Assembly (NCBI GenBank): GCA_030148915.1
Contig: JASBSN010000042.1
Coordinates: forward strand, 1-64,000
DNA length: 64,000 nucleotides
Reading direction: 5' to 3'
From: Thiogranum sp.
Lineage (GTDB): Bacteria; Pseudomonadota; Gammaproteobacteria; DSM-19610
Both the position numbers and the translations under genes were made by a program. Shown here one piece after another: positions 16,142 to 45,277 of the stretch (positions within the stretch are counted from its first letter, which is position 1; each line of letters starts with the position of its first letter). Under the pieces are notes generated by a model that worked only from the letters and a program-made list of their open reading frames with translations, was not told where the DNA came from and ran no database searches.

Positions 16142-16972
16142 TCAGCGACGCTCCTGAATCTTACCATCCGGGTCCGAGATAATGATCTCGACGCGTCGGT
16201 TCTGCTGGCGACCTTGCGCGGTGGAATTGGAAGCAACCGGATAGGCTTCACCATAGCCGCGCACCCGAACCCGCTCCGGTGCGATGCCGCGGTCGAGTAA
16301 GGCGCTGCGCACGGCGTTCGCCCGCCGCTGCGACAACTGCTGGTTGTACTCCTCTGTCCCGCGGCTGTCCGTGAAGCCTTCAATCAGCACGTTGCGTTTT
16401 TTGTACTGACTGAGGAAATCACCGAGTTTCCCGATCGTCGGGTAGGCGCCGGGCTTTAAGTCCGCTTTACCGGTATCGAACAATACATCGCCCAATGTCA
16501 AAACGATTCCTCGCTCGGTCTCCTTGGCCTGCAGTTCTTTCACTTGCTCCTGCAACCTTTCGGCGGTTTGCTGATGAACGGCAGCGGAAGTCTGGGCCGA
16601 TTGGATTTTCTGCGTTTGCGCCTGCAGACGAATCTGATCGCGCTCGGCCTTGGCGCCTTTTATTTCGTCTTCGGCCACACCCATTTTGGCTTTTTGCTCG
16701 GCGATAGCGGCGCGCTGCTTGGCGAGGTAAGCGGCATGAGTGACCTCATCGCCGGGTTTTCCTGCTTTCCACAGCGATTCAGCCTTCTGGAATTGCTCCT
16801 GCGCTTTCTTCGCCTCGACCGGCGCATACTGATTTACTGCGCGATCGTTCTGAGCCTGATTCACGGAGCTTCGCGCCTGTTCCAGGGTCGCGTTGCGCTC
16901 GGGGGTGCCCGCGCAACCGGCCATGATAAGTGCCAGAGCAAGTGGAGACAGAATTTTTAATGAATGTGTCAT
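16142..16972 (-). CDS. OmpA-family lipoprotein with DUF4398-like helical region
   Basis: 276 residues. A lipoprotein signal (LKILSPLALALIMAGCAG, lipobox Cys at 20) is followed by an Ala/Gln-rich helical region (residues 25-145) like DUF4398, in which LEQARSSVNQAQNDRAV and AKKAQEQFQKAESLWKAGK stand out. A C-terminal OmpA peptidoglycan-binding domain follows: VLFDTGKADLKPGAYPTIGK, VLIEGFTDSRGTEEYNQQLS, and RRANAVRSALLDRGI. The Asp and Arg that bind diaminopimelate in this fold are in place. It should tether the outer membrane to peptidoglycan. It lies 55 bases after a small DUF4398 lipoprotein gene on the same strand, likely one operon. A similar pair occurs at 43849-45145. Confidence 0.9.
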   Translation of the reverse strand: MTHSLKILSPLALALIMAGCAGTPERNATLEQARSSVNQAQNDRAVNQYAPVEAKKAQEQFQKAESLWKAGKPGDEVTHAAYLAKQRAAIAEQKAKMGVAEDEIKGAKAERDQIRLQAQTQKIQSAQTSAAVHQQTAERLQEQVKELQAKETERGIVLTLGDVLFDTGKADLKPGAYPTIGKLGDFLSQYKKRNVLIEGFTDSRGTEEYNQQLSQRRANAVRSALLDRGIAPERVRVRGYGEAYPVASNSTAQGRQQNRRVEIIISDPDGKIQERR

Positions 16973-17027
16973 GTCAAAAACCTTATCTAAAAATATTGAG
17001 TGCAGTCAGAAACCGGGTATCCGCAGC

Positions 17028-17405
17028 TTACTGCGGCGCTGGCAGACCCAGTTCCCGGCGGAGTAACTCCAGACTGTTGCGCAATTCGCTGGCCGCCTGC
17101 TGGGCGCGCGCTGAAAGCGCGGTCTGCTGGGCCAATTCCGCGTCAATCTGGGCCTCTTCAGCCAGGCGACGCGCTTGTGTATAGTCCTTACGCTTCATCG
17201 CTGCACGGGCGTCGTCGGCTTTTTGCGATGCGCTACGCAGCAGCAACGGCGCGTGTTCGTCGGCTTTGGCCTCGCGCGCTTGCTCGACGGCGGTTTCGGC
17301 CTTCGCCACACTGCCAACCGGCGCAGGCGTACTGGCGCAGGCGTACAAGCTCAATGACAGCAGCAGGAGAGTGATTGCCCGGAACGGAAGCAGTATGGAT
17401 TTCAT
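17028..17405 (-). CDS. Small DUF4398-type lipoprotein
   Basis: 125 residues. The signal peptide FRAITLLLLSLSLYACAS ends in a lipobox (LYAC). The mature part is one long Ala-rich helical hairpin: SVAKAETAVEQAREAKADEH, then SASQKADDARAAMKRKDYTQ and ARRLAEEAQIDAELAQQTAL. This matches DUF4398, a family with no known biochemical role. It is first in the pair with the OmpA-type lipoprotein. Likely located at the inner face of the outer membrane. The two proteins resemble each other in the helical part, so heteromeric packing is possible, but that is inference. Confidence 0.85.
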   Translation of the reverse strand: MKSILLPFRAITLLLLSLSLYACASTPAPVGSVAKAETAVEQAREAKADEHAPLLLRSASQKADDARAAMKRKDYTQARRLAEEAQIDAELAQQTALSARAQQAASELRNSLELLRRELGLPAPQ

Positions 17406-17733: not shown

Positions 17734-18669
17734 ATGACTGATCAGGTAAATGAGGGGGTGTCCGAGACGGATGTCTACAAAACCCTACTGGAGTCCACCA
17801 AGGCCATTCCCTGGAAAATCGATTGGCAAACACAGCGGTTTTCCTATGTTGGGCCGCAAATCGAAGATTTACTGGGCTGGTCGCCCAGCAGCTGGGTGAG
17901 CGTGGAAGACTGGGCCAGCCGGATGCACCCGGATGATCGGGAGCGGGTTGTCAATTTCTGTGTCGCCCAGTCTCAGGCCGGGACGGATCACGAAGCGGAT
18001 TATCGCGCCCGGACAATTCAGGGTGACTATGTGTGGATCCGCGACGTGGTACACGTGGTGCGCAACGAAGGCAAGGTTGAATCATTGGTCGGCTTCATGT
18101 TCGACATCACCGAGCGGAAAAAAACCGAAGAGGAACTGATCCGGATTCAGAAAAAACTCGAAGAGCTGTCATTCAAGGACGGCTTGACCGGCGTCGCCAA
18201 TCGACGCATGTTTGATTCTATTCTGGATGTGGAATGGAGCAACGCGCGGCGCAATCGCCAGCCGCTGTCGCTTATTCTGTTGGATATCGATTTTTTTAAG
18301 CAGTACAACGATCACTATGGCCATATTCAGGGTGACGACTGCTTGATACGGGTGGGCCAGGCGTTGAGTGGCTCCGCCAAACGGGCAAAGGATTTCCTCG
18401 CCCGATTCGGCGGCGAAGAGTTTGTACTGGTACTACCTGAAACCGACGCCAAGTCAGCCCAGAGGGTGGCCGAAAGGTGTCACGCCATGGTCTTCAACCA
18501 ACAAATTGCGCACACGACGTCCAGCGTCGCCCCGGTGGTAACCGTCAGCCTGGGCGTCGGCACCATAACGCCCACCGCGGATGACGCACCGAAAGCCTTC
18601 ATCGAAGAGGTGGACAAGCTGCTCTATAAAGCGAAACAGAGCGGCAGAAACTGTATCGTTTACGGTTGA
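17734..18669 (+). CDS. PAS-GGDEF diguanylate cyclase
   Basis: 311 residues, soluble, no membrane segments. Residues about 15-130 form a PAS/PAC domain (FSYVGPQIEDLLGWSPSSWV, then SLVGFMFDITERKKTEEEL). A short coiled coil leads to a GGDEF domain (about 145-311) that starts DGLTGVANRRMFDSILD and has the active-site signature RFGGEEF near residue 226. GGEEF is a functional variant, so it should make cyclic di-GMP. There is no clear RxxD inhibitory site before the signature (the segment is SAKRAKDFLARFGG). No phosphodiesterase or receptor gene is adjacent. The PAS ligand is unknown. Confidence 0.92.
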   Translation: MTDQVNEGVSETDVYKTLLESTKAIPWKIDWQTQRFSYVGPQIEDLLGWSPSSWVSVEDWASRMHPDDRERVVNFCVAQSQAGTDHEADYRARTIQGDYVWIRDVVHVVRNEGKVESLVGFMFDITERKKTEEELIRIQKKLEELSFKDGLTGVANRRMFDSILDVEWSNARRNRQPLSLILLDIDFFKQYNDHYGHIQGDDCLIRVGQALSGSAKRAKDFLARFGGEEFVLVLPETDAKSAQRVAERCHAMVFNQQIAHTTSSVAPVVTVSLGVGTITPTADDAPKAFIEEVDKLLYKAKQSGRNCIVYG

Positions 18670-43797: not shown

Positions 43798-43848
43798 CGA
43801 AACAAAGCCCCGACGGGGCCTTCAGTAAGCACTCGGTTGAACCCGTTG

Positions 43849-44610
43849 TTACTGTAAATCGAGACTCCCACCCAGGTAGCTGCGGTCCGATTCCTCCGTC
43901 ACGCCAACCGACCAGGCACCGCGGTTTTTGGCATGATTGACGGCCATTTCGGCCTCAGCCGCCGAAGCGCTGCGGTTGATGCCGAAGTCCTGGCCCGGGT
44001 AGATCAGATCCGCGTCCTTGATCTGATTGCGGTTGGCTTTGTATATCAGCGGCCATTCGTAGGGGTTGCCGTACACCTCCTGCCGGCCGGCGATCGACCA
44101 CAGACTGTCGCCGCGCACCACCCGGTAATCGGTGGTGTTCGAGCTGCTGTGCATACCACCCATCATCGGCGTCAGCATATCGTAGGCTTTACGGCCCTCG
44201 GCGTTGCGGATTGCATCGCTTGCACGAGAGAGCGTGGCGCGCTGCTCGGCGCTTAATTTGGACGCCTTGCTGAGACTGCCGTACATGACCTTGGCGTGTT
44301 CCAGATAGTACTGGTTGACCGCCAGCTCGGCCTGGCCGCGCGCCTTGTTGGCTTTCTTGACGGCGGCATCGACGTTGCCCGCGGCCGCGTCTTTCTCGGC
44401 ATCGGCAAGAATGGACTCGGTGTCGCGCCAGATCCAGTCAACGGACTTGGCCTTGGCGACGGCTGACTTAGCGGAGTCTATGGCCTGTGTGGCAGCGGCG
44501 GCGGCCGAGGTATCCTGCTTGGGTGCCGGTGGGTTCGATGAGCAGCCTACCACCATGCCCAGCGCTACAACGACGGGAACCAGTTGCTTGCCAAAAATCA
44601 TTCTTTTCAT
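43849..44610 (-). CDS. Lipoprotein with helical region and LysM domain
   Basis: 253 residues. A lipoprotein signal (KQLVPVVVALGMVVGCSS) is followed by an Ala/Lys-rich helical region (about 30-140; AIDSAKSAVAKAKSVDWIWR, then VDAAVKKANKARGQAELAVN) like DUF4398, and a C-terminal LysM domain (YRVVRGDSLWSIAGRQEVYG through LIYPGQDFGI) that binds peptidoglycan glycans. The ATG at 44610 has GGAG eight bases upstream; an upstream GTG would add three residues. A promoter with TTGACA and a hairpin in the 5' leader are visible. It mirrors the OmpA-type lipoprotein at 16142, with a different peptidoglycan-binding domain. Confidence 0.88.
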   Translation of the reverse strand: MKRMIFGKQLVPVVVALGMVVGCSSNPPAPKQDTSAAAAATQAIDSAKSAVAKAKSVDWIWRDTESILADAEKDAAAGNVDAAVKKANKARGQAELAVNQYYLEHAKVMYGSLSKASKLSAEQRATLSRASDAIRNAEGRKAYDMLTPMMGGMHSSSNTTDYRVVRGDSLWSIAGRQEVYGNPYEWPLIYKANRNQIKDADLIYPGQDFGINRSASAAEAEMAVNHAKNRGAWSVGVTEESDRSYLGGSLDLQ

Positions 44611-44674
44611 GAATGTCACTCCGCTAGTGGTTGTTCCATGAGTACTTTTTACTCATTTTTAATTTGTTACCCGA

Positions 44675-44703
44675 AGCTAACACCCGATTCCACCGAGTGT
44701 CAA
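44675..44703 (-). promoter_or_regulatory. Promoter of the LysM lipoprotein gene and leader hairpin
   Basis: On the minus strand TTGACA (44703-44698) is followed after 17 bases by TTAGCT (44680-44675). The predicted transcript includes the inverted repeat ATGAGTA-CTTTT-TACTCAT (44638-44656), which could stabilise the mRNA or bind a regulator. Confidence 0.45.
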
Positions 44704-44809
44704 GCTGTGCGGGTTTGGTCGCACGATTAGGCGTCTCTAGTCCACAAAGACGTAGCAGGCCGAAAAAAATTCCGTCCTCGCGGGGAAATGCCGCGGCCGC
44801 CGCAGGACT

Positions 44810-45145
44810 TCATTCGGAATCGGCCTGCTGCGCGGTTTCCCGCGCACGGATGGCGGCGTCCCGAGCCAGCGCGGCGCTCTCCCGGGCTTTGCGGAAATGG
44901 CGCTCGTTGAGCATCGCTTCGGCCCGCTTGAGTAGCTCCCCGGCTTGGCGGTAACTGTCCGCGGCACGCTGTTCGGCCCCGGCCACCCGCGCGGCCTCGA
45001 TAGCCTGGCGTGCCTCGCTCATTTCCTGTACCGGCGCCGACCCGCAGCCGACCAGCGTAGCCGCCAGCAGCAACGCCGCCGCCCGTACCGCGGCCCGCCG
45101 TGCAGTCAGCCGGACTTTCGAGAAACACAAATAGGTTGAGTGCAT
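44810..45145 (-). CDS. Small DUF4398-type lipoprotein (second copy)
   Basis: 111 residues. An Arg-rich n-region leads to AAALLLAATLVGCGSAP with a lipobox. The mature part is a helical hairpin: EARQAIEAARVAGAEQRAAD, then AGELLKRAEAMLNERHFRKA, matching DUF4398 and resembling the protein at 17028. It lies 199 bases upstream of the LysM lipoprotein on the same strand. The LysM gene has its own predicted promoter, so they may be regulated separately. The ATG at 45145 has no good ribosome-binding site; a longer TTG/GTG form cannot be excluded. Confidence 0.75.
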   Translation of the reverse strand: MHSTYLCFSKVRLTARRAAVRAAALLLAATLVGCGSAPVQEMSEARQAIEAARVAGAEQRAADSYRQAGELLKRAEAMLNERHFRKARESAALARDAAIRARETAQQADSE

Positions 45146-45277
45146 AGGTACTGCAACTGTAGGGTCAGAGCGACACGCTAGCACCGCGCCCGGGGGCGGT
45201 CAAGAATGCGGCGCCGGGCGCGTGGACGCCTAAGGGCGGATAGCGGACAATACTCCCCCCGTTCGAGGAGAAGACCT

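Follow-up and report, generated by a model that had tools for sequence, protein, structure and literature searches.

The spacing between the outer membrane and the cell wall is a basic question of envelope biology that has mostly been studied through Lpp, Pal, and OmpA. Here we consider two pairs of lipoprotein genes within a single stretch of DNA from Thiogranum sp. (GCA_030148915.1, contig JASBSN010000042.1, positions 1–64,000 of the forward strand; this whole stretch of 64,000 nt is called the window below). In each pair, the gene for a small lipoprotein with a DUF4398 domain – a domain of unknown function – precedes the gene for a large lipoprotein that combines a helical part with a peptidoglycan-binding domain, which is OmpA-C in pair A and LysM in pair B.

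Pair A resembles a published gene pair, known but without a known mechanism: PA3691–PA3692 of Pseudomonas aeruginosa, in which PA3692 is LptF (lipotoxin F). We take PA3691 to be a DUF4398 protein. The NCBIfam LptF model (NF053613) spans residues 9–275 of large lipoprotein A with 236.8 bits, though this lies below the model’s cut-off of 400. Two reports, in the portions available, treat PA3691 and lptF as one unit and describe their co-induction (PMC3855792, PMC7685553); with lipoprotein transport blocked, the tabulated values (first data column) are 18.2 for PA3691 and 16.7 for lptF (PMC7685553). Excerpts also report more biofilm and Psl upon PA3691-92 overexpression (PMC3855792) and, for lptF overexpression, higher survival under murepavadin but lower survival under ceftazidime/avibactam (PMC10581190). 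These phenotypes fit a role in envelope integrity. We found no description of a complex of PA3691/LptF-type lipoproteins in the literature, the available excerpts of which describe regulation and phenotypes and most subscription papers of which lay outside the search; nor did the accessible texts using the name DUF4398 contain an account of a gene pair.

For pair B and the natural fusions described below, nothing was found in the accessible portions of the literature searched except LipL71/LruA of Leptospira, a single chain annotated with the same two domains, DUF4398 and LysM (PMC5406399). Small lipoprotein B matches positions 3–94 of the LipL71 model (NF033163) and the LysM protein matches positions 412–458 of 471, but LipL71 is one chain rather than two and the window’s scores (36.1 bits for small B, 41.3 for large B) are far under the cut-off of 600. 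The BB0323–BB0238 system of Borrelia, according to the excerpts available, comprises a spectrin-like helical LysM protein and a separate partner that stabilize each other; it differs in BB0238, whose solved domain has a mixed alpha/beta structure and is not DUF4398. In PDB sequence searches with the window’s proteins and one natural fusion (L054), neither BB0323 nor BB0238 was among the matches listed (in one list, the best 60 of 78). Pal and other OmpA-C lipoproteins share with large A a lipid anchor and a wall-binding OmpA-C, but large A scores 82.0 bits on the Pal model (TIGR02802; cut-off 125.35), and to our knowledge Pal has neither a DUF4398 module nor an adjoining small paralogue. Finally, the helical part of large B matches the model of the SoxAX-binding protein SAXB (NF052674; E 9.2e-14), but with 51.8 bits against a cut-off of 95.

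Both loci follow the same plan on the minus strand – a small, then a large lipoprotein gene – as a first-pass annotation of this DNA had proposed. The four frames are confirmed, and each protein carries the lipobox assigned to it. In pair A, 55 bases separate the small lipoprotein gene (17028–17405; 125 amino acids, Cys23; open reading frame and Pfam) from the large, LptF-like one (16142–16972; 276 amino acids, Cys20; open reading frame, Pfam, NCBIfam, and predicted structure). In pair B, small lipoprotein B (44810–45145; 111 amino acids, Cys34; open reading frame and Pfam; an alternative GTG start is open at 45184) is followed by large lipoprotein B (43849–44619; 256 amino acids, Cys26; open reading frame, Pfam, and NCBIfam; an ATG at 44610 is an alternative start). 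The gap between them, 190 bases at 44620–44809, is without a consensus promoter or terminator, and a terminator-like hairpin lies 3′ of the LysM gene (43804–43822, minus strand; 2 such hairpins were found in the region versus 1.4 expected).

The domains assigned to these proteins held with one exception. Against a Pfam cut-off of 27.9 bits, DUF4398 (PF14346) is found in small A (55.6 bits), small B (31.3), and large A (59.9, residues 29–106; a genome scan places the match at 16655–16888, minus strand, with 62.8 bits). OmpA-C in large A (residues 164–259; 16196–16483, minus strand; Pfam and alignment) scores 88.2 bits, above its cut-off, and LysM in large B (residues 165–210; 43990–44127, minus strand) scores 28.6 bits against 20.9. 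The helical part of large B (44170–44532, minus strand, limits approximate) had been described as similar to DUF4398, and Pfam does not list the domain there up to an E-value of 1, let alone at the cut-off; relatives of the LysM protein in genomes G057 and G140 do reach it. Small A has a PDB relative in 4fm3, a solved DUF4398 structure (E 3.9e-9). That 4fm3 is not among the structural matches listed for large A, where OmpA-C fills the list, or for the modeled fusion (see below) is uninformative on fold.

Pair A is conserved well beyond this genome. Using as query an alignment restricted to small A proteins, and thus blind to the neighboring gene, we scanned a single genome of each species and obtained at least 80 loci. 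Among the 80 listed, 78 have a gene with the helical part of large A and OmpA-C downstream on the same strand, and the two without one (L161 and L192) both stop at a contig end. The DUF4398-OmpA gene follows within ~200 bases or less in 77 loci and at 607 bases in L166. The record titles, many of them metagenome-assembled genomes (MAGs), name Gammaproteobacteria, Thiobacillus, Nitrosomonas, Gallionella, Azospirillum, Zetaproteobacteria, Nitrospira, Desulfamplus and other Deltaproteobacteria, Balneolales and other Bacteroidetes, and one Latescibacterota MAG. The window shares this LptF-type order, in which the DUF4398-OmpA gene comes after a small lipoprotein gene. Carriers of the OmpA pair also include the non-pathogens Cellvibrio mixtus (L210) and Thiobacillus denitrificans (L187).

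A second survey, a class census, took in all 81 DUF4398 places in 140 genomes, the window’s own included; small B of the window was entered by hand, as its Pfam match overruns the stop codon. Loci were classified with profiles derived from 13 pairs of type A and 27 of type B, among them those of the window; the same profiles served for the neighbors of the 80 small A loci, the LysM-side count, the domain limits in L054, and the spacer lengths given below. All 12 single small A genes have as their neighbor a gene encoding the large-A helical part, 11 times with OmpA-C. A LysM or LysM-helix gene is next in 22 of the 36 single small B loci; the neighbor itself has LysM in 20 of these, is a helical part only in G020, and in G062 is a helical-part gene followed by a LysM gene. 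Of the other places, 6 hold small B in one chain with the helical part (LysM being present in one), 5 lie within LysM proteins, 9 are large A proteins of pairs, 7 are long OmpA lipoproteins, 2 are other DUF4398-OmpA proteins, and 4 are single helical-part proteins. In a further scan that matched 90 of 369 genomes, 30 loci were read (28 small A and 2 small B), and both small B genes have a LysM gene next to them. Synteny beyond this genome, which the first-pass annotation had named as a check, thus extends across several phyla for the OmpA pair and to 22 of 36 loci for the LysM pair. Gaps run from -29 to 84 bases in the 13 A pairs and from 3 to 288 in the 27 B pairs, start-codon choice affecting both ranges; pair A looks like an operon, while pair B looks like two neighboring transcription units.

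Profile comparison, done after removal of the signal peptides, matched small A with large A (E 4.6e-12), small B with large B (E 1.1e-11), and small A with small B (E 1.1e-13). When one side was reversed as a control, the match was lost (E 0.04 to 0.11), so the similarity is not due to composition alone. The helical parts of the small and large proteins are homologous in both pairs, and DUF4398 has a divergent relative in the helical part of the LysM protein.

The key new evidence for pair B comes from natural fusions. L054 (in G040) is one 305-residue lipoprotein that runs from small B through the helical part to LysM; the small B profile ends at residue 116 and the helical-part profile starts at 110. 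A search with L054 returned 33 protein clusters covering 85–100% of it, one being its own. Four further fusions (P0034, P0036, P0038, and P0039, the last from Beggiatoa alba) join the small domain to the helical part without LysM. Two proteins encoded separately in one organism but as a single chain in another commonly act together. Because single-chain versions exist, with agreeing order and boundaries, we infer that the partners of the LysM pair act together, and the fusions predict where the two chains would meet.

The predicted structure of one such small B–helical part–LysM chain (predicted local distance difference test score, pLDDT, by block 94–99) shows three successive three-helix units in which long helices are shared between units. 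The small domain is modeled as the first unit behind the lipid anchor, sharing the helix of residues 90–126 with the next, and the helical part of large B is related to units 2 and 3. The modeled layout would resemble that of spectrin rods, where three-helix bundles follow one another and share the helices that link them. The model of the window’s large A (mean pLDDT 92.5, predicted template modeling score 0.67) has helices at residues 28–42, 44–49, and 51–69, then a continuous helix at 74–146 (16535–16753, minus strand), then OmpA-C; at 1.5 Å per residue, this 73-residue helix would be ~11 nm long. The lipid cysteine and OmpA-C are about 103 to 393 residues apart, with a median of 151, as judged from 74 of 79 proteins; these come from 78 loci, one of which has two pairs, and the proteins left out escaped the lipobox pattern.

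It had been suggested that the small protein of each pair packs against its partner's helical part. For the LysM pair the natural fusions and the confident fusion model favor this; for the OmpA pair no fusion was seen among the 120 homologues listed, and the long helix of large A gives no coiled-coil periodicity signal (221 of 1000 shuffles as high). Most likely, homologous modules stack end to end; this is a prediction for the LysM pair, from which we extrapolate to the OmpA pair. Judged by length (≤355 amino acids), none of the best 120 of 5922 homologues of the L005 large A is a small A–large A fusion, in a search that scored 8000 candidates. The 460–559-amino-acid DUF4398-OmpA lipoproteins, at 7 places of the class census, were considered as fused OmpA pairs but not counted as such, as the similarity of their N-terminal stretch to small A is weak (E 0.1 in L013, 0.02 in L063). 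By eye, three single-chain OmpA lipoproteins of this kind (L013, 970–2352; L026, 979–2457; L060, 1778–3232) show 2–3 DUF4398-like repeats, a coiled part, and OmpA-C, and may correspond to the OmpA pair in one chain.

A tether role between outer membrane and wall, also put forward in the first-pass annotation, would follow from the lipobox combined with OmpA-C or LysM. None of the four lipid-anchor cysteines precedes an aspartate, and lipoproteins without an aspartate at that position are sorted to the outer membrane in Escherichia coli. In an alignment of 66 sequences, which took in 36 of the 120 listed large A homologues, D202 and R217 are invariant; from what is known of Acinetobacter OmpA, we take these to be the peptide-binding Asp/Arg pair of the wall site.

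We propose, with a probability of roughly 0.5, that each pair stacks three-helix modules end to end as one strut from the outer membrane to peptidoglycan. The small lipoprotein would contribute one module; large A would add one module and large B up to two, together with a wall foot (OmpA-C or LysM). In pair B the small module would come first and share a helix with the next, as in the fusion model, and the arrangement of pair A is extrapolated from it. Where the chains are split, the small protein may cap or lengthen its partner’s rod and bring a second lipid anchor, giving a strut with two anchors, and spacer length may be set by the number of units or by the length of the long helix. More tentatively, the families could form a spectrin-like kit, in which stackable lipoprotein modules, separate or fused, tune strut length and anchor number on interchangeable OmpA-C and LysM feet. 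If such two-chain struts exist, they would give DUF4398 a function and provide a testable mechanism for the stress-induced gene pair of Pseudomonas.

Several observations weigh against the two-chain strut. The LysM pair is not obligate and often incomplete, because 14 of the 36 single small B genes (one at a contig end) are without a LysM gene. The same is seen from the LysM side, where 69 of 140 genomes matched and 40 were kept (LysM part at E <1e-30, weaker LysM or helix-only matches being dropped): small B is upstream in 22 (including G062) and fused in 1, a helical-part gene is upstream in 1, but 16 LysM genes, one at a contig start, have no small gene. Within these 40 genomes the helical part and the small gene co-occur weakly (21 of 33 versus 2 of 7; Fisher P 0.11). 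A sequence motif of small B, P-x-Q-x-M-S-x-A-R-Q, lies right behind the lipid anchor (45005–45034, minus strand; alignment), and it is largely kept in copies without a LysM neighbor, so small B may bind something else. The negative periodicity of the large A helix belongs here as well; the helices of small A and small B (27 and 67 of 1000 shuffles as high) were not taken as support. For the Borrelia protein BB0323, the accessible text reports that LysM deletion was without effect on fission or outer membrane (PMC5462797).

The strongest alternative, though in our judgment an unlikely one, is that the small gene is a tandem duplicate retained for joint regulation only, with both products acting separately as envelope-stress lipoproteins that make no contact. 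The homology and adjacency of small and large genes fit this explanation, as do the frequent small B genes without a LysM gene and the joint rise of PA3691 and lptF under blocked lipoprotein transport in the available part of PMC7685553. It sits poorly with the natural fusions of the LysM pair and with the order and closeness of the OmpA pair, which are kept in several phyla.

It is rather improbable that the helical modules are instead docking sites for a third envelope protein, the small lipoprotein being an independent copy of the site. The membrane-end motif of small B, whose seven named positions are invariant in 21 proteins and which looks like a candidate binding surface at the membrane, would suit such a function, particularly as it is largely kept in copies without a LysM partner; the likeness of the large B helical part to the SoxAX-binding protein model and the fusions without LysM point the same way. 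Yet a LysM gene adjoins small B in 22 of 36 loci, fusions with LysM exist, and a recurring third gene was seen by eye only, no systematic search having been made. Small B genes without a LysM neighbor are followed by an acylphosphatase-like gene in L100, L070, L077, and L088 and by a YihY-like gene in L101, L067, and L076.

In the YfiR–YfiB mechanism, a regulator governs a partner’s grip on the wall. Least probable is that the small protein likewise binds the large one’s helical part and allows wall binding only under stress: the two helical parts, being homologous, might compete for a single surface, and LptF, in the text available, is AlgU-controlled and alters survival under murepavadin and ceftazidime/avibactam when overexpressed (PMC10581190), but in the fusions the small domain is permanently attached and one stress-sigma-type pattern was not found before the 13 A and 27 B pairs. 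That single pattern (a GAAC box, 15–19 bases, and a TC box) occurs neither in the 250 bases upstream nor in the gaps of these pairs, so it does not support RpoE/AlgU-like control. Sigma-70 and terminator scans around both window loci gave counts near shuffle expectation.

A PAS-GGDEF gene (17734–18669; diguanylate cyclase-like, by eye) is divergent from pair A. We considered a YfiBNR-like circuit through this gene and dropped it, as the surroundings, inspected by eye, are not common to L139, where the gene does not adjoin the pair. In the 3.2 Mb genome, the DUF4398 Pfam model has three matches, every one inside the window; in G014, G018, and G127 pairs A and B lie on separate contigs, so their closeness in the window is not conserved there. 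A MAG named Thiogranum sp. holds a close relative of pair A, with 84% identity in the small protein. Finally, two loci encode ~105-residue lipoproteins resembling unit 1 of the LysM helical part (L084, 2328–2651; L092, 2325–2639), and each of these genes is followed, by eye, by an exonuclease VII large subunit-like gene.
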